DNA of 64,000 nucleotides from an uncultured Anaerolineae bacterium (GTDB lineage: Bacteria > Chloroflexota > Anaerolineae > Anaerolineales > Villigracilaceae), in NCBI GenBank assembly GCA_903875215.1, contig CAIQVH010000016.1:124001-188000 (forward strand), given 5' to 3'. Numbering within the stretch: the stretch's first letter is position 1; the number at the start of each line of letters is the position of its first letter. Below, piece after piece: positions 12,007 to 22,129 of the stretch. The position numbers and the translations under genes are program-made. A model generated the notes under the pieces. The model did no database searches. It saw only the letters and a program-made list of their open reading frames with translations, and was not told the origin of the DNA.

Positions 12007-13329
12007 CTATTTCTTCCCAAACTTTTGCTTCAGGATGTCTTCCAGCGTGGGCTGGCCAATTTCTTGCAACTCATAGCGTACGCGCTGGTAGGGTTTGTTG
12101 ATGTTGATGATGCGGGTCAGGTCAATTGGGGTGCCGATGACGACCATGTCGACATCCATGGCGTTGATGGTGGCTTCCAGGTCGCGGGTCTGCGCTGCGC
12201 CGTAGCCCATGGCTGGCAGGATCGGGCCGGTTTTGGGGTACTTGGCGTACGTTGCGGCGATGGATTTGACGGCGAAGGGGCGCGGGTCGACGATTTCTTT
12301 TGCGCCAAAGCGGCGGGCGGCGACGTAACCGGCGCCGTAGGCCATTTCGCCGTGGGTCAGGGTTGGGCCGTCTTCGACGACCAGCACGCGCTTGTCCTGG
12401 ATGGCGGCGGGGTCATCCACAAAGAGCGGGGAGGCGCCTTCGATGACGATCGCGTTCGGGTTCATGGCGCGCAGGTTCTCGCGGACTTTGATGACTTTCT
12501 CGGGGTCGGCGGTGTCGACTTTGTTGATGACGAAGACATCTGCGGCGCGAACGTTGGTCTCGCCGGGGTGGTAGCTGGCTTCGTGACCGGCGCGGTGCGG
12601 GTCAGCGACGACAATCTGCAGGTCGGAGACGTAGAAGGGGAAGTCGTTGTTGCCGCCATCCCACAGGATGATGTCGACTTCTTTTTCGGCGGCGCGCAGG
12701 ATTTTCTCATAATCCACGCCGGCATAGACGATGACGCCGTTATCGAGGTGCGGTTCGTATTCCTCGCGCTCTTCGATGGTGCATTCGTGTTCGTCCAGGT
12801 CGTCGTAATCGGCGAAGCGCTGGACTTCCTGGCGGACGAGGTTGCCGTAGGGCATCGGGTGGCGGATGGCGGCGACTTTGTAGCCCATTTCGCGCAAAAT
12901 CAGCGAGACGCGGCGGGTGGTCTGGCTTTTGCCGGAGCCGGTGCGCACGGCGCAGACGCTGACGACCGGTTTGACGGATTTGACCTGGGTGAGATGCGTG
13001 CCCATTAAACGGAAATCGGCGCCGAGGGCGTTGACCAGCGAGGCTTTGTGCATCACGTACTCGTGCGGCACATCCGAATAGGCGAAGATGACCTGTTCTA
13101 CGTTGTGCTTTTTGATCAGTTCGGGCAGGTCCGATTCGGCATAGATCGGGATCCCGGCGGGATACAGCTCACCGGCGAGTTCCTTGGGGTATTGGCGGCC
13201 TTCGATATCGGGGATCTGGGTGGCGGTGAAGGCAACAACTTCGTAATCCTTGTTCCCGCGGAAGAAGGTGTTGAAGTTGTGGAAGTCGCGGCCGGCGGCT
13301 CCCATGATGAGGGTTTTGATGGGGGACAT
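12007..13329 (-). CDS. Cyclic 2,3-diphosphoglycerate synthetase-like P-loop protein
   Basis: A 440-aa protein resembling the archaeal cyclic 2,3-diphosphoglycerate synthetase family. The N-terminus is Rossmann-like (KTLIMGAAGRDFHNFN). A P-loop RTGSGKSQT sits near residues 129-137, followed by RHPMPYGNL, WDGGNNDFPF, NKVDTAD and a C-terminal GTPIDLTRIININKP. The archaeal enzyme makes an intramolecular phosphoanhydride from 2,3-DPG; whether bacterial homologues do so is uncertain. The gene stands alone between two terminators with a 240-nt leader, so regulation at RNA level is plausible. Confidence 0.78.
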   Translation of the reverse strand: MSPIKTLIMGAAGRDFHNFNTFFRGNKDYEVVAFTATQIPDIEGRQYPKELAGELYPAGIPIYAESDLPELIKKHNVEQVIFAYSDVPHEYVMHKASLVNALGADFRLMGTHLTQVKSVKPVVSVCAVRTGSGKSQTTRRVSLILREMGYKVAAIRHPMPYGNLVRQEVQRFADYDDLDEHECTIEEREEYEPHLDNGVIVYAGVDYEKILRAAEKEVDIILWDGGNNDFPFYVSDLQIVVADPHRAGHEASYHPGETNVRAADVFVINKVDTADPEKVIKVRENLRAMNPNAIVIEGASPLFVDDPAAIQDKRVLVVEDGPTLTHGEMAYGAGYVAARRFGAKEIVDPRPFAVKSIAATYAKYPKTGPILPAMGYGAAQTRDLEATINAMDVDMVVIGTPIDLTRIININKPYQRVRYELQEIGQPTLEDILKQKFGKK

Positions 13330-13585
13330 GCAGGTTCTCCTGAACAGAAAAGATGAATTTCAGCGTGGTCTTTTCATTGCCGCCGGGGTTCATCTTTTTT
13401 AAATAAAAGATGACAAAGACCCTCCTGCGCTTCAAAGGAGACTCTTTGCCTGGTTTGGAAACCGCGGCTGAAACTGACCTTGCTGATTTTCGCAGGGGCC
13501 GACGGCCACTACGTCACATCACTTCTGGGGCTGTGATGCCCAAAAGCGCCAAAAGAAAGGCGGAACTGCTCTAAAAATTATAACA
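13330..13585 (-). promoter_or_regulatory. Promoter and long structured 5' leader (riboswitch or attenuator candidate)
   Basis: On the minus strand an extended -10 box (TGT TATAAT, 13577-13585) predicts a start near 13570, giving about 240 untranslated bases before the ATG. The leader can form CATCAC/GTGATG, GGCC/GGCC and GGTT/AACC hairpins. A 13-bp hairpin with one mismatch (CAAAGAGTCTCCT with AGGAGGGTCTTTG, about 13414-13448) is then followed by a U-rich stretch, as in an attenuator terminator. A second A/T-rich hairpin is at 13390-13413. No known riboswitch class was recognised. With the terminator at 13642-13683 this accounts for the gene-free stretch 13330-13708. Confidence 0.4.
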
Positions 13586-13641
13586 TTCTGGCCGTGGTGT
13601 AGCGTCATGTTTTGGAGGGTACTTTTTTCCTCAAAATCTTA

Positions 13642-13683
13642 TAAAAAAACCGGTGAGGCCTTGTTCGGAACAGGGCTCACCGG
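13642..13683 (-). terminator. Intrinsic terminator of argS
   Basis: Long stem CCGGTGAGGCCTTGTTC (13650-13666) with 13667-13683, nearly perfect, followed on the minus strand by a run of seven U. It lies 25 bp after the argS stop. Confidence 0.88.
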
Positions 13684-13708
13684 GGATGGAGATTTTCAGG
13701 CTGGTGGG

Positions 13709-15532
13709 CTACATCACTTCTGGCGCCGTGATTCCCAGTAATTTCAGGGCGTTGGAAAGGACCTGCTTGGCGGCTGCCACCAGGCGCAGTCGCGCTGCCC
13801 GCACAGCTTCCTCGCTCTGAAGCACCGGGACAGCATGGTAAAAACTGTGGAAGGCTGTCGCCAGGTCATACACGTAGGTGGCCACCACCAGCGGGCGGTA
13901 TTCGCTGGCGGCCTGCTGGACGATCTTGGGGAAGCGTGACATCTGCTCGATCAACTCGATTTCATGGGCGGTCAATTCGTAGGAAAAAGTCGAAGGTTGA
14001 AGGTCAGAACCATTCGACTTTTGACTTTCGACCTTCGACTTCCGAAGGATTGAATTGGCGCGCACATACGCATTCTGGATGTAAGGCCCGGTGCGCCCGT
14101 CAAAGCTGAGTGCTTCGTTGATATCAAAGATGATGTCCTTGTTATTGTCCACCGCCAGCATCGAATATGCCAGCGCTCCCATGCCGACCTTGCGGGCTAC
14201 ACCCGCGCGCTCGCTCTCGGGCATGCCGGGATTTTTCTCGGCGATGACAGCCAGCACGCGCTGGATGGCCTCGTCATAGACTTCTTTGAACAGCACCACC
14301 CGTCCGCGCCGCGCCGACATGGCGCCTTCTGGCAGGCTGACAAAGCCATACGCCAGGTGATAGCATTTTTCGGCCTGTTTGAAGCCCCATAGCTCCAAAA
14401 TTTTAAATGCCTGCTGGAAATGCAGACTCTGGCGGTTATCGACTACATAAATCGAACGGTCAACATGATATTCGTCGAATTTCTGCTCGGCTAACGCCAG
14501 GTCCTTGGTCAGGTACAAGGTCGTCCCATCCGAGCGTAAAATCACCGCCACGCGGTATTTTTCCTTGCTTAGCCCCAGCTTCTCGTCAATTTTGACGATC
14601 ACCGGCCCGGCCGGGCGCTCATCGCTGGCGATGCCGCGCGCAATCAATTCATCGACGATTTTTTTCGAAGGTTCGTCCACCTCGCTTTCATAGAACCAGA
14701 CATCAATCTTGACATCCATCATCTCCAGGATGTCACGCAGCTCCACCAGACTCCATTCGCGCGTTTCCTGCCATAACTGCCGCACCGCCGGGTCGCCGGC
14801 ATCCCATTTGCGGTACAGGTCGCGCCGTTCCGTTTCGTAGGTCTCGCGCTGGGCTTTTTCCTCGGGCGTCTCCTGCTCTTTTTCTGCCAGCAAATTGGTA
14901 GCCTCGGCATAAATTTTCAGCAGCCATTGTCCACGTTCGTGGATGTCAACAGGCTCCCGACCCTTGTAAAACTTCTCATATGCCCACATAACGGTAATCA
15001 CGCCCAGCCCCAAATCGCCCGGGTACGAAGCCCGGATCGTCTCAAAGCCAGCAAATTGGACAATCCGCGCCAGGCTCTCGCCTAAAATCGTATTGCGATA
15101 ATGCCCAATATGGAAGGAGTGATGCGTATTCGGCTGGGCATACTCCACCATCACCCGTTCCTGTTTCGGACTCCCTGCCCCGAACCGTTCCCCGTCCGCC
15201 AGGGCCGAATCCACCACCCGGCGCGCCACTTCCGCAGTAGAAAAATACAGATTCAGATACCCTTTCACCGCCTCGCTGTGCGAGATAGCGGGCAGCGCAC
15301 CCAGGCTGCTGCACACCGCCTCGGCAATTTTCTGCGCCAGGGCCGGAACCGGCACCCCCTGGCTTTTCCCTGCTTTTGCAGCCGCCGCGGCCGCCGCAAA
15401 AAACGACGTGGAAATGCCCCACTCCCCGCTGAAAGGGATCGGCATCCATTTTATTTCGGCCAGCGTAATCTCATTCGCCGCACAAAAGGCCTGAATCTGC
15501 GCCTCAACAGTTTGTTGCTCTTTTTCAAACAT
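13709..15532 (-). CDS. argS: Arginyl-tRNA synthetase
   Basis: Class I aminoacyl-tRNA synthetase charging tRNA-Arg (607 aa). The N-terminal Arg-tRNA additional domain precedes the HIGH-type motif (ANTHHSFHIGH variant: QPNTHHSFHIGH, about residues 133-144). The C-terminal part carries the anticodon-binding DALR-like domain (YVYDLATAFHSFYHAVPV). A KMSKS site is represented by the region SARRGRVV (MSARRG), as often in ArgRS. Residues of about 497-515 are encoded by a palindromic repeat insert (see repeat at 13987), at the junction before the DALR domain. AAGGTGA precedes the ATG. Confidence 0.95.
   Translation of the reverse strand: MFEKEQQTVEAQIQAFCAANEITLAEIKWMPIPFSGEWGISTSFFAAAAAAAKAGKSQGVPVPALAQKIAEAVCSSLGALPAISHSEAVKGYLNLYFSTAEVARRVVDSALADGERFGAGSPKQERVMVEYAQPNTHHSFHIGHYRNTILGESLARIVQFAGFETIRASYPGDLGLGVITVMWAYEKFYKGREPVDIHERGQWLLKIYAEATNLLAEKEQETPEEKAQRETYETERRDLYRKWDAGDPAVRQLWQETREWSLVELRDILEMMDVKIDVWFYESEVDEPSKKIVDELIARGIASDERPAGPVIVKIDEKLGLSKEKYRVAVILRSDGTTLYLTKDLALAEQKFDEYHVDRSIYVVDNRQSLHFQQAFKILELWGFKQAEKCYHLAYGFVSLPEGAMSARRGRVVLFKEVYDEAIQRVLAVIAEKNPGMPESERAGVARKVGMGALAYSMLAVDNNKDIIFDINEALSFDGRTGPYIQNAYVRANSILRKSKVESQKSNGSDLQPSTFSYELTAHEIELIEQMSRFPKIVQQAASEYRPLVVATYVYDLATAFHSFYHAVPVLQSEEAVRAARLRLVAAAKQVLSNALKLLGITAPEVM
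13987..14041. repeat. Palindromic GTCRAAN-heptad element inside argS
   Basis: Arms 13987-14005 and 14023-14041 are inverted copies (17 of 19 match). Read on the minus strand the element is a chain of heptads (GTCGAAG, GTCGAAA, GTCAAAA, GTCGAAT) followed by the inverted copy. It is in frame within argS and encodes KVESQKSN...DLQPSTF. The same heptads and peptide occur in uvrA at 19841-19921. Confidence 0.85.
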
Positions 15533-15550
15533 GCTTCACCTTGACAAAAG

Positions 15551-15587
15551 AAAATAGCGTTGGCGGATTATACCATTCCAACGCTAT
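15551..15587 (-). terminator. Probable terminator of the rubrerythrin gene
   Basis: Perfect 10-bp stem ATAGCGTTGG (15554-15563) with 15578-15587. On the minus strand it is followed by TTTTCTTTTG. The loop holds TATAAT on the minus strand, so the same segment may also be the -10 region for argS. A further small GC hairpin (15608-15624) directly follows the rubrerythrin stop. Confidence 0.6.
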
Positions 15588-15626
15588 CTGGCTTTTGGTG
15601 CCGCGCAGGGCCTTCCGCCCTGGCTC

Positions 15627-16124
15627 TTACTCCACTTTCAGAAATTTCTCGCCGGGAGTATTGCAGACCGGGCACTTGCCCTCGAATTTGCCGGCGTGAG
15701 TATACCCACAGATTGGGCAGACGTAATATTCCACCGCCGGGGCATTCGGGTCCATGTGTTCCAGCGCATATCGGTAAAGCGCCTCGTGGACTTTTTCCAC
15801 TTCAAAGGCCCACTTGAAGCTGGTATTGGCTTTCTTCTCACCCTCGGCTTCCGAATCGGCGATCATGCCGGGATACATGGTGGTGACTTCGTAGTTTTCG
15901 CCTGCGATGGCGGTTTTCAGGTTTTCCATCGTGGTGCCCACTCCACCCAGCGCTTTCAGGTGGTTGATGGCATGGATCGATTCGGCCATGGCAGCAGCGC
16001 GGAATAATTTGGCAATTTGAGGATATCCTTCTTCTTCGGCTTTCTTGGCAAAAGCGGTGTACTTGCGGCCAGCCTGTGATTCACCGGCAAAAGCCTCTTT
16101 GAGATCAACGGTTGTCTTGGACAT
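15627..16124 (-). CDS. rbr: Rubrerythrin
   Basis: Non-haem di-iron peroxidase protecting anaerobes from hydrogen peroxide (165 aa). The N-terminal ferritin-like domain has AFAGESQAGRKY (E14), AESIHAINH (E48, H51), AGENYEV (E77) and the fourth helix EVEKVHEALY. The C-terminal rubredoxin-like domain has CPICGYTH...CPVC (residues 136-154). An upstream extension to 16169 is open, but AGGAGG directly before ATG 16124 decides the start. Expected to receive electrons from rubredoxin or an NADH reductase not present here. Confidence 0.94.
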   Translation of the reverse strand: MSKTTVDLKEAFAGESQAGRKYTAFAKKAEEEGYPQIAKLFRAAAMAESIHAINHLKALGGVGTTMENLKTAIAGENYEVTTMYPGMIADSEAEGEKKANTSFKWAFEVEKVHEALYRYALEHMDPNAPAVEYYVCPICGYTHAGKFEGKCPVCNTPGEKFLKVE

Positions 16125-16170
16125 TTTGTCCTCCTTGAAAATGATTACGTTAATTAAATCACAGACCAAT

Positions 16171-16199
16171 TGAATACCTAGTGAAGAACATCACAACAA
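16171..16199 (-). promoter_or_regulatory. Rubrerythrin promoter with CRP/FNR-like palindrome
   Basis: Minus-strand -35 TTGTTG (16194-16199) and -10 TATTCA (16171-16176) have a 17-bp spacer. The spacer contains AGTGA-N6-TCACA (16180-16195), which matches the TGTGA-N6-TCACA architecture of CRP/FNR-family sites. Its position between -35 and -10 would suit repression. The site is inferred from sequence only. Confidence 0.45.
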
Positions 16200-16270
16200 A
16201 TCCGTGACAGAGTGTTGAATTTATTATGTGGAAGGGCTATTGAAGCTTCTGGGATTCCCCGTTCAGATGC

Positions 16271-16304
16271 ACAAAAGCGGGAGCACCATTTGGCGCTCCC
16301 GCTT
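16271..16304 (-). terminator. Intrinsic terminator of rpsT
   Basis: Ten-bp stem AAGCGGGAGC (16275-16284) with GCTCCCGCTT (16295-16304). On the minus strand it is followed by a short U-run. It lies 23 bp after the rpsT stop. Confidence 0.8.
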
Positions 16305-16326
16305 GATGCCTAACTCACAAGCCGGG

Positions 16327-16590
16327 TTACTTTGTTTCGGCCGCAGCCAGAGCCTTCATCAGGCGGCTTTTGCGGCGGGCGGCATTATTCTTGTGGATGA
16401 CGCCTTTTTCAGCGGCCTTGTCCAGGCGGCTGATCGCTTCCAGCACTGCAGCCTTGTCGGGTTTGCCGGCGTCAATGGTTGCGCGGGCTTCGCGTACAGC
16501 GGCGCGGGCTGAACCACGGAATTTGCGATTGCGCAGGCGGCGCGATTCGTTCTGGCGATTGCGTTTGATCTGGGACTTAATGTTAGCCAA
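16327..16590 (-). CDS. rpsT: 30S ribosomal protein S20
   Basis: Primary 16S rRNA-binding protein of the small subunit (87 aa), highly basic, starting [18 protein letters not shown] and ending with the helical [15 protein letters not shown] typical of S20. The start codon is TTG at 16590, with GGAGG seven bases upstream. Escherichia coli rpsT also uses UUG and is autoregulated at translation. It has its own promoter and terminator. Confidence 0.95.
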
Positions 16591-16633
16591 GGTACTTCCT
16601 CCGAGAATACTATCCTTTTTACAGCGGGTTTGG

Positions 16634-16662
16634 ATTTTACCCGATGCATCTGGTTTTGTCCA
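16634..16662 (-). promoter_or_regulatory. rpsT promoter
   Basis: Minus-strand -35 TGGACA (16657-16662), a 17-bp spacer and -10 TAAAAT (16634-16639), about 40 bp before the TTG start. A good match to the housekeeping sigma consensus. Confidence 0.6.
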
Positions 16663-16670
16663 GTCCGATT

Positions 16671-17579
16671 TTAGGGCGTCGGGGTCAGCGACGGGGCTTC
16701 CAGGGCCGGCGCGCTGGGTGTGACTGTGGCTCCCGGGGTAATGGTCGGGGCGCTGGTTACCGTGGGGGTGACCAGATTGACGCGCACGATGATTTCCTGG
16801 CCGATAAAGATCGTATTCGCATCGGTCAATTTGTTCTTTGCGATGATGTCTTCTTCTGTGCTGTTAAATTGGGAAGCGATTCCTGCCAGTGTGTCACCTG
16901 CCTGGATGGTGTAGGTGATTTCTTTGCCGCGTGAGAGCGTGGTCAGATCAATTGGGGTGGGGGTCGGGCAGATCAGGCCGGGGTTGGGTAGGGTGATTTT
17001 TTGGCCGGGGGAAATGTTGTTGATGTCCAGATTCGGATTGAGGGCGGCAATGGTGCACAGGAAATCGTCTGCCAGACTGTATTTTTCTTTCAACGCGTAT
17101 AACGTGTCGCCGCTCTGAATCTCGTAGAGGAAGGGCGCCGATGCGGTGGGGGTCAGGGTGACGGTGGGCGTGGGCGTTTCGGTGGCTGTGCTGGTGGCAG
17201 TTGGACTGCTGGTGGGGGTGTAGGTCAGGGTGGGCGTGGGGGTGTCTGTGGCCAGCAGGGCAAGCAGGGGGCTGCCCTGGCTGAATATCCAGGTAATCAG
17301 GATGATGAGGCCGCCGACAATCAGCAGCGCAACCAGGCCCCAGATGATGAATGGGCCAATTTGCTGGCGTTTGCGATAGCTGGAAATCATCTGGGTGGGC
17401 GGTCGCTGGTGGATATAGGCGGGCGGCGCGGTTTTAGGCTGGGGTTTGGGTTCTTCCACCTCGGGTTTCGGCGGTTCGGGTTCGATCATTGCCTGGATAT
17501 CTGGAATGGCTTCTGCCGGCGGAGGCGGAGCGGGGGGTGTTTCCGCGTTATTTTTGCTGAGTGGTTTCTTCTGCAACAT
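16671..17579 (-). CDS. Membrane-anchored protein with two LysM domains
   Basis: A 302-aa bitopic protein. A Pro/Glu-rich cytoplasmic part (1-72) is followed by one membrane span (about 75-100, [19 protein letters not shown]) and a Thr/Pro-rich TPTxTxTP linker typical of Chloroflexota exported proteins. Two LysM repeats follow: [18 protein letters not shown] and [17 protein letters not shown], each ending in PGQKITLP- or GQEIIV-type segments. LysM binds GlcNAc-containing glycans, so a peptidoglycan contact outside the membrane is expected. AAGGAAG precedes the ATG. No enzymatic domain is visible. Confidence 0.85.
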
Positions 17580-17710
17580 GACAGCTTCCTTTTCGGTAGG
17601 GCGGCTGAAGGCCAGCTTCGCCGTGGATATATTTATTCTACCTGAAAAATGAATGTTTTTTTCATAAGAAATGTGCCCTGCCGTTCGGCTAAGCTGCGTT
17701 CCAGTTGGCT

Positions 17711-20659
17711 TTATGACAGGTGCGCGGCGTGGATTTTCAAGAAATGCCCGGTGTGACTGCGCTCGATCTGCATCACGTCTTCGGGAGTGCCTTCTGCGAT
17801 CAACTCTCCGCCCCGGTCGCCTCCCTCGGGACCCAGGTCAATGATCCAGTCGGCGACTTTGATGATGTCCAGGTTGTGTTCGATGATCAGCACCGAGTTC
17901 CCGGTATCCACCAGGCGTTGAATCACTTCGATCAGTTTATGCACATCGGCGGCATGCAGCCCCACCGAGGGTTCATCCAGCACGTACAGCGTGCGCCCGG
18001 TGGCGCGGCGCGAGAGTTCCTTCGAGAGTTTGACGCGTTGGGCTTCTCCGCCGCTCAGGGTGGTGGAGGGCTGCCCGATTTTGACGTAACCCAGCCCAAC
18101 TTCCTGCAACAGCCGCAGTTTGTTCATCATGGCCGGGAAGGCGCTGAAGAGCTCCAGCCCCTCCTCGACGGTCATATCGAGCACGTCGGCGATCGACTTG
18201 CCCTTGAAATGCACCTGCAGCGTCTCGCGGTTGAAGCGCGTGCCGTGGCAGATATCGCACGGGACGTAAATATCGGGCAGGAATTGCATTTCGATGCGCA
18301 GCATGCCCTGGCCCTGGCAGGCTTCGCAGCGCCCGCCATGCACATTAAACGAGAAACGTCCGGGCTTGTAGCCGCGTACCTTGCTTTCGGGCAGTTCCGC
18401 AAACAGTTTGCGGATCTCATCCCACATGCCGGTATAGGTGGCCGGGTTGGAGCGCGGTGACCGGCCAATGGGCGACTGATCGATTTCGATGATTTTATCC
18501 AGGTTGTCCACGCCGTCGAGGCGCTCGTGTTCGGCTGGCTGGGCGCGGGCGCCATTCAGTTGGGCGGCCAGCGCAGTGTAGAGAATATCGGTCATCAGGG
18601 TGGATTTACCGGAGCCGCTCACGCCGGTGATGCAGACCAGCTCTCCGAGCGGGATCTTGACGGTGAGATTTTTCAGGTTGTTTGCCCGCGCCCCGACAAT
18701 GGTCAGCGTTTTCCCGTTGCCCTTGCGCCGCTGATTGGGCACCGGCACCGAGAGTCGCCCCGATAAATAGGCGCCCGTCAGCGATTGGGGGTGGTTCAAA
18801 ATCGTTTCCGGGGTGCCCTCGGCGATGATTTCGCCGCCATGTGCCCCTGCCGCCGGGCCCAGGTCGATGATCCAGTCGGCGGTGCGGATGGTTTCGTCGT
18901 CGTGTTCGACCACCAGGACGGTGTTGCCCAGGTCGCGCAGCCCTTTCAGGGTTGCCAGCAGCCGGTCATTATCGCGCGGGTGCAGGCCAATGGACGGTTC
19001 ATCCAGCACGTAGAGCACGCCCACCAGCCGCGAACCGACCTGGGTGGCGAGACGAATTCTCTGGGCTTCGCCGCCGCTCAACGAAGCGGCAGAGCGGCGC
19101 AGGGTCAGGTAATCGAGACCGACATTGACGAGAAAGCCCAACCGGGCGACGATTTCCTTCAAAATCCGCTCGGAGATGGCCTGCTGGCGCGCGTTGAGCG
19201 GGGTTGCGGCTCCGGCCAGCTGCTCGGCCCATTCCAGCGAGCGGTTGATTGGCCACCCGGTCACCTCCAGGATATTCACGTCGCTGACGGTGACGGCCAG
19301 CGCTTCGGGGCGCAGGCGTTTCCCCAGGCAGACCGGGCAGGGCCGGTCGGTCATGTATTCGCTGATCTTGGATCGGATGTATTCCGAATTGGTTTCGCGG
19401 TAGCGCCGCTCCAGGTTGCCAATGATGCCTTCAAAAGCGGCGTCGAAGTTGGCGGTGCGGCCCTCGCGGTTGCGGTAGTGAACGCGCACGCGTTCACCCT
19501 TCGTCCCGCGCAGAACCACTTCCTGCTGCGCGGCGGTCAGTTCCTTGAAGGGCTTGTTTAAATCAATGTGATAGTGATGCGCCATTGCCTCGAGCATTTG
19601 CCAGTAATAGCCGGGATTGCCGTCCTCGCGGACGTTGCTCCACTCCATCGCGATCAGCGCCCCGTCGGTCAGTGACTTTTCCGGGTCGATCACCCGCTCC
19701 GGGTCAATTTCCAGCTTCGAGCCCAGTCCCTGGCACTCGGGGCAGGCGCCTTGCGGCGTGTTGAACGAAAACGTGCGCGGCTCAATTTCTGTTAACGAGA
19801 CGCCGTGCTCGGGGCAGGAGAGATTTTCAGAGAATAACATGTCAAAAGTCGAAGGTCGAATGTCTTTTTCCTGGTTGACGTTTGACTTTTGACCTTCGAC
19901 GCTGCTTTTTGGGCCTTCGACAATTGACACCGTGACATACCCCTCCCCAAACTTCAACGCCGTCTCCACCGAATCCGTCAACCGCGTCCGGGCCTGATTC
20001 TCGTCCTCGCTGGATTCCGGGCGGCTGATGACGAGACGATCCACCACGGCGTCGATGTTGTGCTGTTTATAGCGATCCAGCTCGATTTCATCATCCAGGC
20101 TGACAACTTTGCCATCCACCCGGGCGCGGACAAACCCGGCTTTGCGGATTTCCTCGAAAACAGCCTGGTAGGTGCCTTTGCGTCCGCGCACCACCGGCGC
20201 CAGGATCAGGATGCGCGTGCCAGTCTCCAGCTTTTCAATCGCTTCGACAATCTCCTGCGCCGATTGCTTGACCACCTCCCGGCCGCAGACCGGGCAGTGC
20301 GGCGTGCCGACGCGCGCGTATAAAAGCCGCAGATAGTCGTAGATTTCGGTAACGGTGCCTACTGTCGAGCGTGGGTTGTGGCTGGTTGATTTCTGGTCGA
20401 TCGAAACAGCGGGAGAAAGCCCCTCGATGTAATCCACATCCGGTTTTTCCATCTGCCCGATGAATTGGCGAGCGTAGGCCGAGAGCGATTCGACGTAGCG
20501 GCGCTGGCCCTCGGCGAAGATGGTGTCGAAAGCGAGCGAAGACTTTCCGGAGCCGGAAAGGCCGGTGATGACGACAAATTTATCGCGCGGGATTTCAACG
20601 GTGATGTTCTTCAGGTTATGCTGGCGGGCGCCAACGACACGGATCACATTTTGGGGCAT
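17711..20659 (-). CDS. uvrA: UvrABC excinuclease subunit A
   Basis: Damage-recognition ATPase of nucleotide excision repair (982 aa, about 40 longer than usual). There are two ABC ATPase halves: Walker [13 protein letters not shown] near residue 33 and [11 protein letters not shown] near 650, each with an LSGGEAQR signature. Zinc motifs are CPEHG...CPECQG and CEACQGQG...CDICHG; the first has His in place of one Cys. Part of the extra length (about residues 246-274) comes from a palindromic repeat insert shared with argS. Confidence 0.96.
19841..19921. repeat. Palindromic GTCRAAN-heptad element inside uvrA
   Basis: Left arm 19841-19864 (GTCAAAA, GTCGAAG, GTCGAAT, GTC) and right arm 19877-19900, whose complement is GTCGAAG, GTCAAAA, GTCAAAC, GTC. 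All six arm mismatches are transitions. Degenerate further copies run to 19921. In frame it encodes SVEGQKSN...DIRPSTFD, matching the peptide encoded by the argS element. The insert lies just before the first zinc motif of UvrA. Confidence 0.82.
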
Positions 20660-20703
20660 AAAAACACCTATTATGGGTAAAGGGCTGATTATCAGGACTT
20701 TGA

Positions 20704-20712
20704 ATTATAGCA
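20704..20712 (-). promoter_or_regulatory. uvrA promoter (extended -10)
   Basis: Minus-strand TGC TATAAT (TATAAT at 20704-20709, TGC at 20710-20712), 45 bp before the uvrA ATG. No -35 at standard spacing. No SOS-type operator was recognised. Confidence 0.5.
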
Positions 20713-20790
20713 CATACGTTTTATGTTTTGCGCAAATAGTTACCGGGGCATGCAAAGTCAGGGGTTTTGTTGTAATTATTGAATATAAAA

Positions 20791-20818
20791 TTGACAATCT
20801 TGAATGGATGGCTATAAT
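20791..20818 (+). promoter_or_regulatory. Promoter of the MFS transporter gene
   Basis: Near-consensus TTGACA (20791-20796), a 16-bp spacer and TATAAT (20813-20818). One of the strongest promoters in the window, about 85 bp before the start codon at 20903 and divergent from uvrA. Confidence 0.8.
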
Positions 20819-20902
20819 AAATGAAAATACACAAAAATAAACTTCTGTTTTTTGATCGCCTGGCTCAGGCGTCAGGCTGGGAAATTCACTAAAGGAAAAC
20901 GA

Positions 20903-22129
20903 ATGCAAACCAAAACTCCCTTGCTGACCAGAACCCTGGTTGTGCTGCTGGTCAGCATGATTGCGGCGAATATTGGCGGGCAAATGTATGGGCCGCTCCT
21001 GCCGCTCTACGTCCAGCAGCTGGGCGCAGATATGAACCAGATTGGCCTGTTCTTCACGCTATCCATGATTGCCCCGTTGTTGTTCCAGATCCTTGGCGGC
21101 TGGCTTTCCGATTCTATTGGGCGCGTCCAGGCCATGGCGATTGGCAGTGTGGCGGGGCTGGCTGGTTATGTTATTTTTGTCATTGCTCCCAATTGGGGCT
21201 GGCTGCTGCTTGCCATGATCGGTTTGTCGGTGGCGACCTCTTTCGTCGGCCCCAGCTTTCAGGCCCTGATTGCCGAGGAAGCTCCGCCAGAATCGCGCGG
21301 AAAAGTCTTCGGTATTGTCCAGGGCCTTTTTTTGGTGGTGGGCGTGATCGGCGCGCCGCTTGGCGGCTGGCTGGCCGATGGCTATGGCTTTCGCAAGATG
21401 TTCATCGTTGCCACCCTTCTCTATGGCATTGCCACCATCATCCGGTTGTGGATGGCCCGCAAAATCCGCAGCGAACAAGCCCATTCCGTTGAAAAACCCT
21501 CCTTTGCCCAGCTGAAAATGACCATCGCCACCATCACCGGGCTGTTGGTGGCGGGCGGCATAGTGACCTGGATTTTCATCACAGATGGCGTCAGCGATGT
21601 CACTTTCAGCATGGTTGGCAACCTGTTTCCGCTTTACTTGAACAATATCGTCGGCATTTCCAAAACCCAGCTTGGCATCCTTGGCGCTATCACCTCGATT
21701 GCAGCCATGATCTTCATGATGCCCGGCGGGATGCTCTCGGACAAATATGGCGAGCGCGTGGGCATCATCCTTGGCAACCTTTTGGCCGGCGGTGCAATCT
21801 TCCTCATGCTAAACGTCCAGAGTTTTATCTATTTTATTGCCGCCTGGGCCTTGCTCGGCATTGGGCAGGCCTTCACAGGTCCGGCCTACAGTGCCCTGAT
21901 TACCCGCGCCATTCCCAACAAAGTGCGCGGCACTGCCTTTGGGCTGTTTTCCACCAGCCTGGGAATCATCTCGCTGCCCGCGCCTTATATCGGCGTCATG
22001 CTCTGGGAGCAATTTGGGCCGCGCGTGCCCTTCTACATTCCGCTCGCTGCCATGCTGCTGATGTTGCCCATCATCTGGGTCAAATTCTACTTACCCAGGG
22101 ACGAAAAAGCAGCAAGCGTGGAAAGCTGA
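20903..22129 (+). CDS. Major facilitator superfamily transporter
   Basis: A 408-aa integral membrane protein with 12 predicted helices in two halves. MFS loop motifs are GGWLSDSIGRVQAM after helix 2 and GGMLSDKYGERVG in the second half. Substrate is not evident; multidrug or sugar efflux types look like this. The frame is open from 20852, but AAGGA (20892-20896) supports ATG 20903 (MQTKTPL). It has its own strong promoter, and no convincing terminator follows. Confidence 0.85.
   Translation: MQTKTPLLTRTLVVLLVSMIAANIGGQMYGPLLPLYVQQLGADMNQIGLFFTLSMIAPLLFQILGGWLSDSIGRVQAMAIGSVAGLAGYVIFVIAPNWGWLLLAMIGLSVATSFVGPSFQALIAEEAPPESRGKVFGIVQGLFLVVGVIGAPLGGWLADGYGFRKMFIVATLLYGIATIIRLWMARKIRSEQAHSVEKPSFAQLKMTIATITGLLVAGGIVTWIFITDGVSDVTFSMVGNLFPLYLNNIVGISKTQLGILGAITSIAAMIFMMPGGMLSDKYGERVGIILGNLLAGGAIFLMLNVQSFIYFIAAWALLGIGQAFTGPAYSALITRAIPNKVRGTAFGLFSTSLGIISLPAPYIGVMLWEQFGPRVPFYIPLAAMLLMLPIIWVKFYLPRDEKAASVES

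Follow-up and report, generated by a model that had tools for sequence, protein, structure and literature searches.

A palindrome of GTCRAAN heptads in argS, probably a member of a repeat family dispersed in an Anaerolineales lineage

Introduction

The best-known palindromes that lie in frame in genes are those of Rickettsia and the intragenic REPs, and we know of no established mover for the Rickettsia palindromic elements (RPEs). As described in PMC10969869, RPEs are short palindromes of about 150 bp, grouped in ten families, which lie in frame in unrelated genes and contribute a recurring peptide. The GTAG/CGTC REPs are small palindromes near gene ends that also occur inside DNA repair and tRNA synthetase genes, including uvrA and DNA ligase, and intragenic REPs of other bacteria are placed once at about the same recB site in two species (PMC3733652). 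Two further systems share single features with the locus described here. The TAACTGA heptamer repeats of Beggiatoaceae have a period of 7, are almost only direct repeats, carry stops in the forward orientation and are titled intergenic (PMC4679880), and PARCEL combines dyad symmetry in coding sequence with a 25-residue amphipathic tandem motif in ORFs of unassigned function, many of which carry membrane-targeting sequences (PMC2996958).

Here we analyse a palindrome of heptads in argS, the gene for arginyl-tRNA synthetase (ArgRS), within a window of 64,000 nucleotides from an uncultured bacterium of the Anaerolineales. An earlier note on this DNA had likened the palindrome to the in-frame RPEs and the likeness is supported, since here too palindromes lie in frame in unrelated genes and encode a recurring peptide, but the Anaerolineales copies are set apart by their description, being of ~50-80 bp, built of degenerate heptads, located in a different phylum and equivalent in the three frames of one arm. 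That such inserts are known from Rickettsia is correct, although repair and tRNA synthetase genes with in-frame palindromes have also been described outside that genus (PMC3733652), and the heptad copies resemble the intragenic REPs in lying within repair and tRNA synthetase genes. A literature search, with most subscription journals outside its reach, found no account of the family, in agreement with the earlier note.

Results and Discussion

The argS palindrome

The argS gene (positions 13709 to 15532, minus strand) encodes an ArgRS of 607 amino acids, assigned from the ORF, its translation, Pfam matches to tRNA-synt_1d and DALR_1, and ArgRS chains in the PDB. The palindrome spans 13987 to 14041, with no strand assigned, and consists of two arms of 23 nt each (13987-14009 and 14019-14041), which are 87% complementary at a spacing of 9 nt. 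On the plus strand it reads GTCGAAG GTTGAAG GTCAGAA, a short loop and TTCGACT TTTGACT TTCGACC TTCGACT, so that most heptads follow GTCRAAN and two deviate. The ArgRS ORF runs uninterrupted across the palindrome, as the earlier note had claimed, with no stop or frameshift in its 607 codons. The loop that holds the insert was assigned to residues 499-517, SKVESQKSNGSDLQPSTFS (13982 to 14038, minus strand), from a comparison of 95 of 96 argS loci and from the predicted structure.

The heptad pair GTCRAANGTCRAA, with at most one mismatch, has 10 matches in the window against 0.95 expected and none of 100 shuffles reaches 10; all ten are confined to argS and uvrA, 6 kb apart. In the source genome, a 20-base pattern, GTCRAANGTCRAANGTCRAA, has 11 exact matches whereas its control has none. 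A chance origin of the argS palindrome is excluded by these window and genome counts against their controls, and the genome-wide search that the earlier note had proposed places the argS insert as one copy of a dispersed family. By blastn, the argS copy has 23 matches including itself, the better of which (E below 0.001) show 77-79% identity. Folded as RNA, the argS element reaches −24.5 kcal/mol (z of −3.6), and all seven elements tested have z values from −2.5 to −6.5, consistent with the ability of RPEs to form a stable hairpin. An Rfam scan of positions 13000-21000 of the window gave no match.

Design of the heptads

In order to describe the family, we delimited 115 copies in loci that had been chosen for holding the 20-mer, and the counts therefore describe strong copies. 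Of these copies, 59 are inverted two-arm arrays and 55 have one arm by the threshold used, some of the latter being plain tandem arrays (L173, for example). The arm order is GTCRAAN, loop, NTTYGAC in 59 of 60 two-arm copies, with arms mostly of 3-4 heptads and loops of 1-49 nt. Over 416 heptads the near-fixed letters are G (403), T (415), C (390), A (385) and A (398), whereas R is G in 218 and A in 191, and N is G in 179, A in 154, C in 59 and T in 24.

The free letters are matched neither between arms nor between copies. None of six registers gave arm-to-arm agreement significantly above chance, the highest for R being 0.59 against 0.50 (sd 0.05), and for N the agreement in the outer register was below chance, 0.21 against 0.37 (sd 0.04), so that the arms as mirror copies of each other are not supported. 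Sharing of R and N between 47 copies did not exceed that of shuffled columns, and copy-and-paste from a master element was rejected for want of any surplus of common letters. Because R and N are unmatched in both comparisons, the copies obey the rule without a visible pedigree and their arms are imperfect.

Tandem arrays were counted by period in 822,530 bases (fetched loci and window), a set in which the insert sites of argS, mutS2 and uvrA are represented and some loci overlap; period 7 has 48 arrays, whereas periods 5, 6, 8, 9, 10 and 11 have 8, 10, 3, 2, 0 and 1, respectively. It is extremely improbable, in the light of these counts, that the argS segment is an ordinary hypervariable linker with codons that are repetitive by chance. 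The loop is indeed variable among relatives and mostly filled with other sequence, but the same heptads stand in non-coding spacers and in unrelated genes, their matches lie far above controls, and the dispersed copies refute a chance linker. The STRR of cyanobacteria are another heptamer repeat with period 7. Unlike the TAACTGA type, the Anaerolineales heptads are often arranged in inverted arms, are degenerate at two positions and are often coding, and by its arm order the family would for the most part differ from plain tandem heptamers. Period-7 arrays are also formed by other heptads, GTTGAAG among them.

A second type of palindrome, CCCTGAGCNNGTCGAAGGG, in exact or degenerate form, lies within or beside heptad copies at L182 (2182-2257), L187 (2200-2257), L192 (2001-2043) and the argS loop of L113, and has GTCGAAGG in common with the heptads. 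We considered it as the heptad source and rejected it; since 38 of 81 relatives, within the family and beyond, have its exact form, it was taken as a separate repeat.

Placement in genes and operon spacers

Genes were called by two codon-score scripts in place of a gene finder, which put 56 and 52 of the 115 copies inside long ORFs and agreed on 50; two copies are in the second list only (one of them, L225, lies by eye between two genes) and six in the first only. The 50 agreed copies lie in frame in unrelated genes, as RPEs do. Besides argS, which is supported by Pfam, the genes with copies include uvrA, ligA, mutS2, a fused glycyl-tRNA synthetase and lipoyl-domain acyltransferases, all named by eye, and a single peptide type, KVESQKS ... 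DLRPSTFD, recurs in them. As in PARCEL, dyad symmetry lies in coding sequence, but the family is set apart by a 7-residue cycle (read by eye) that is often found in the loops of housekeeping enzymes.

Of the copies outside ORFs, 62 of 63 could be classed, and 59 lie between co-directional genes, 2 between divergent and 1 between convergent ones, compared with 156, 15 and 20 among 191 background gene pairs (p 0.008), where the spacer count used the 52-copy list and so includes as non-genic the six copies that were coding only by the other caller. For the co-directional spacer copies, the median distance from the upstream stop to the start of the copy is 1 nt and that from its end to the next ORF start is 14 nt, both with wide scatter.

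Translation of the coding copies, and selection on the protein they encode, are suggested by the letter R, which follows the codon position in coding copies only. The ratio of G to A at R is 32:12, 9:29 and 18:18 at codon positions 1, 2 and 3 of the 50 agreed copies (p 5.5e-5) and 33:13, 11:31 and 19:19 in the 52-copy list (p 1.1e-4), compared with 154:153 in non-coding copies, while in the first arm neither A nor G at R gives a stop in any frame. The bias was little changed when L211 and L076 were excluded, two copies in ABC transporter genes, where FDLRPG may be native. In the second arm, a Y that opens a codon could yield TGA, and in coding copies all 31 such positions have C, compared with 51 of 76 in other phases; this was set aside as a sign of translation, since only open ORFs, where TGA cannot occur, were counted and the result is void by construction.

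Distribution over genomes and candidate movers

Among 81 relatives, the 20-base pattern was found in 20 of 49 genomes of the same Anaerolineales family and in none of the 32 from the other families of the order, and carrier genomes have up to 60 exact matches. In a draw of 301 genomes across the phylum, 23 have matches, 11 of 18 inside the family and 12 of 283 outside, where matches were counted irrespective of palindromy; six of these twelve belong to genus g93, one (G261) is of GTCAAAC type and the rest have 1-2 matches each. In g93, which is distant in the phylum (G111, G120, G152, G175, G182, G349), the matches listed are all GTCAAAR, with R always A.

With two mismatches allowed, sister species within one genus differ sharply, G012 having 145 matches and G036 none, G042 192 and G023 5, and G027 70 and G046 none, in genomes where control patterns give 0-3 per strand. 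Further sister sets have 220 (G045), 184 (G026) and 39 (G293) matches, and 46 (G000), none (G009) and 5 (G002). The family is thus either rapidly lost or rapidly gained, partly at the same sites.

No target-site duplication was found as exact direct repeats of at least 4 nt abutting both ends in any of 59 two-arm copies. Mobilisation by a RAYT, as a REPIN-like REP family, is quite unlikely. A Y1_Tnp match of at least 70 bits is present in 14 of 18 genomes with at least three exact matches compared with 12 of 39 others (p 0.0014, uncorrected for kinship), but none of 20 Y1_Tnp loci, three of which end at a contig end, contains two adjacent heptads, G042 has 56 matches and no such gene, and 11 genomes with the gene have no exact match. 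The GTAG tag of REPs (GTAG/CTAC) lies within 8 nt of just 2 of 118 ends, and although 21 of the 118 read CGTC, the GTC there belongs to the paired heptad. We therefore rejected a RAYT as the mover, on a weak cross-genome association, the lack of heptads at the 20 genes examined and clear counter-examples. Heptad arms, a single copy between convergent genes among 62 spacer copies and no adjoining RAYT at 20 loci also distinguish the family from GTAG/CGTC REPs. It is apparent that the family is not a MITE, by target duplication, nor a GTAG/CGTC REP, by its tags and the RAYT neighbourhoods examined, nor PARCEL, by motif length.

The ArgRS loop in relatives and in the predicted structure

The insert site could be read in 95 of 96 argS loci, of which 87 distinct rows were used. 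Outside the clade the loop mostly has 11-12 residues, often of AGxxPxxASFD type, and most of the distant ArgRS of the order are without the segment, whose presence in all distant relatives would, according to the earlier note, have marked it as ordinary protein sequence. The insert is not peculiar to the source genome, since, by the strict labelling, that codon is also occupied in eleven further relatives, scattered on the tree. Among 13 heptad-labelled rows, ten have 13-19 residues at the loop and three have 24, 33 and 63. On an ArgRS tree calculated with the loop removed, the 13 rows require 11 changes, at least 9 of them forced by well-supported branches, compared with a mean of 12.4 for shuffles that ignore kinship, and three alternative labelings of 12, 16 and 23 rows give 11, 14 and 16 changes with at least 10, 10 and 8 forced, again ignoring kinship. 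Thus, over the 87 sequences the insert is scattered and labile. It is present in 7 of 13 family genomes with at least three exact matches and in none of 32 with fewer (45 genomes in which argS was read), a count in which the argS copy itself raises the match number and in which G039, with a relic, and G043, of GTTGAA type, were scored as insert-less.

The same codon and peptide type in scattered genera could also result from transfer of argS segments between species in place of insertion, and an association with the insert does exist at synonymous sites up to 30 bp upstream (0 of 200 shuffles, kinship ignored). However, this signal is partly the G of the first heptad, no significant association was found farther upstream or anywhere downstream, and a similar pattern is seen in mutS2 and uvrA; we rejected segment transfer, which is improbable given that the association stops beyond 30 bp.

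The earlier note had placed the insert just before the anticodon-binding domain, but it falls within that domain, Pfam DALR_1 (residues 485-607), between two of its helices. In an AlphaFold model of ArgRS (mean pLDDT 76.8, pTM 0.77) the site lies in a loop that joins helices 482-502 and 522-532 and in which residues 504-509 have pLDDT below 50. A PDB alignment to the archaeal ArgRS 2zue passes through the site ungapped with a different sequence, and one to 4oby is six residues shorter there, so that on these two alignments long loops at this site also exist without heptads. The product of the insert is, according to the model, probably a longer and disordered loop in the anticodon-binding domain, and the insert is most likely tolerated rather than useful. 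Other repeats were observed in the same argS loop, arrays of 8-bp units (ACGTTCAA) in L063 and L122, which are of two genera, and a palindrome of CCCTGAGC type in L121.

Sites shared in uvrA, mutS2 and operon spacers

The second copy of the window lies at 19841 to 19928 (no strand assigned) and encodes 27 residues within uvrA (17711 to 20659, minus strand), an ORF of 982 amino acids that was named by eye and has homologues in 59 of 61 genomes; the copy was delimited from pattern matches, blastn and ORF calls. By peptide, the heptad type occupies this uvrA loop in 4 of 30 loci, that of the window included (G000, G026, G027 and G011), and several others have different repeats there. In 31 mutS2 loci, also by peptide, the heptad type is found at site 1 in at least 6 and at site 3 in at least 4, the others being unrelated and often of low complexity. 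The native TTYGAY of argS was considered as a general seed and rejected, since the peptides at unfilled mutS2 sites are without such residues. The uvrA loops of L289, L303 and L305 contain peptides of PSPxGRGxGEG type, perhaps another dispersed repeat, and this loop looks like a common landing place for several repeats.

Several operon spacers also have copies in two or three genera, although the rate of sharing is no random sample because the loci were found through their heptads. In orthologous spacers the heptad rule is kept while letters and unit numbers differ. Ten unambiguous orthologous pairs, left from 15 picked by hand after 2 were skipped and 3 were ambiguous, share R at 27 of 40 positions (background 0.49) and N at 18 of 40 (background 0.36), and these letters hint at traces of common descent with fast turnover.

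Orthologous spacers that hold the rule while letters and unit numbers shift would also be expected if the heptads were binding sites of a trans-acting DNA- or RNA-binding factor, the motif being kept by selection, with one contact per heptad that fixes GTC and AA and leaves R and N free; three heptads make 21 bp, which is two helical turns. Variation that falls mainly at R and N over 416 heptads and the sharply different match numbers of sister genomes are consistent with such a factor, and the placement in operons hints at a role in the transcript. Nevertheless, the copies in argS, mutS2 and uvrA occur in some genera but not in others, and sister genomes manage without the family, and we regard binding sites as possible but on the unlikely side.

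Proposed origin of the family

We propose that the argS palindrome is probably one copy of a non-autonomous palindromic repeat family of one Anaerolineales family, whose copies are dispersed, follow the heptad rule and one arm order, lie in genes and operon spacers, show a codon-dependent bias and are labile. Copies would arise within transcription units by a trans-acting process, and genic copies would persist where they land in flexible loops and stay readable. Readability is favoured by the design, since 7 is coprime to 3 and every frame of a GTCRAAN arm is stop-free and encodes one and the same heptapeptide cycle (VESQKSK type); the other arm would stay open given only C at every third Y. 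Copies and sites would turn over fast, and because of this the R and N letters would be largely lost between relatives while the GTC-R-AA-N rule stays. Among 47 copies, none were near-identical as would indicate recent transposition, and the sites common to several genera could be old insertions kept by descent rather than signs of mobility.

A more speculative version, which we hold to be doubtful, is that a trans-acting system writes or maintains the rule and not a sequence, namely heptads with 3+2 fixed and two free letters, inverted and within transcription units, so that copies have no pedigree and genomes gain or lose the family at once. If so, the repeated occupation of the same codon in argS, mutS2 and uvrA would reflect targeted insertion and not descent. 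Which letters of the heptad are fixed and which are free gives a measurable clue to the recogniser. The family provides a lineage other than Rickettsia with many copies, near-empty sister species and common sites in essential genes, and thus a comparative system for how such elements arise, why the same loops are occupied and whether repeats supply new loops to conserved enzymes.

Heptad matches were also observed in viral contigs, in at least 120 stretches, mostly as single matches. One contig of 8255 bases filed as viral (L358) has seven heptad matches in both orientations and is perhaps host DNA or the provirus of a carrier.
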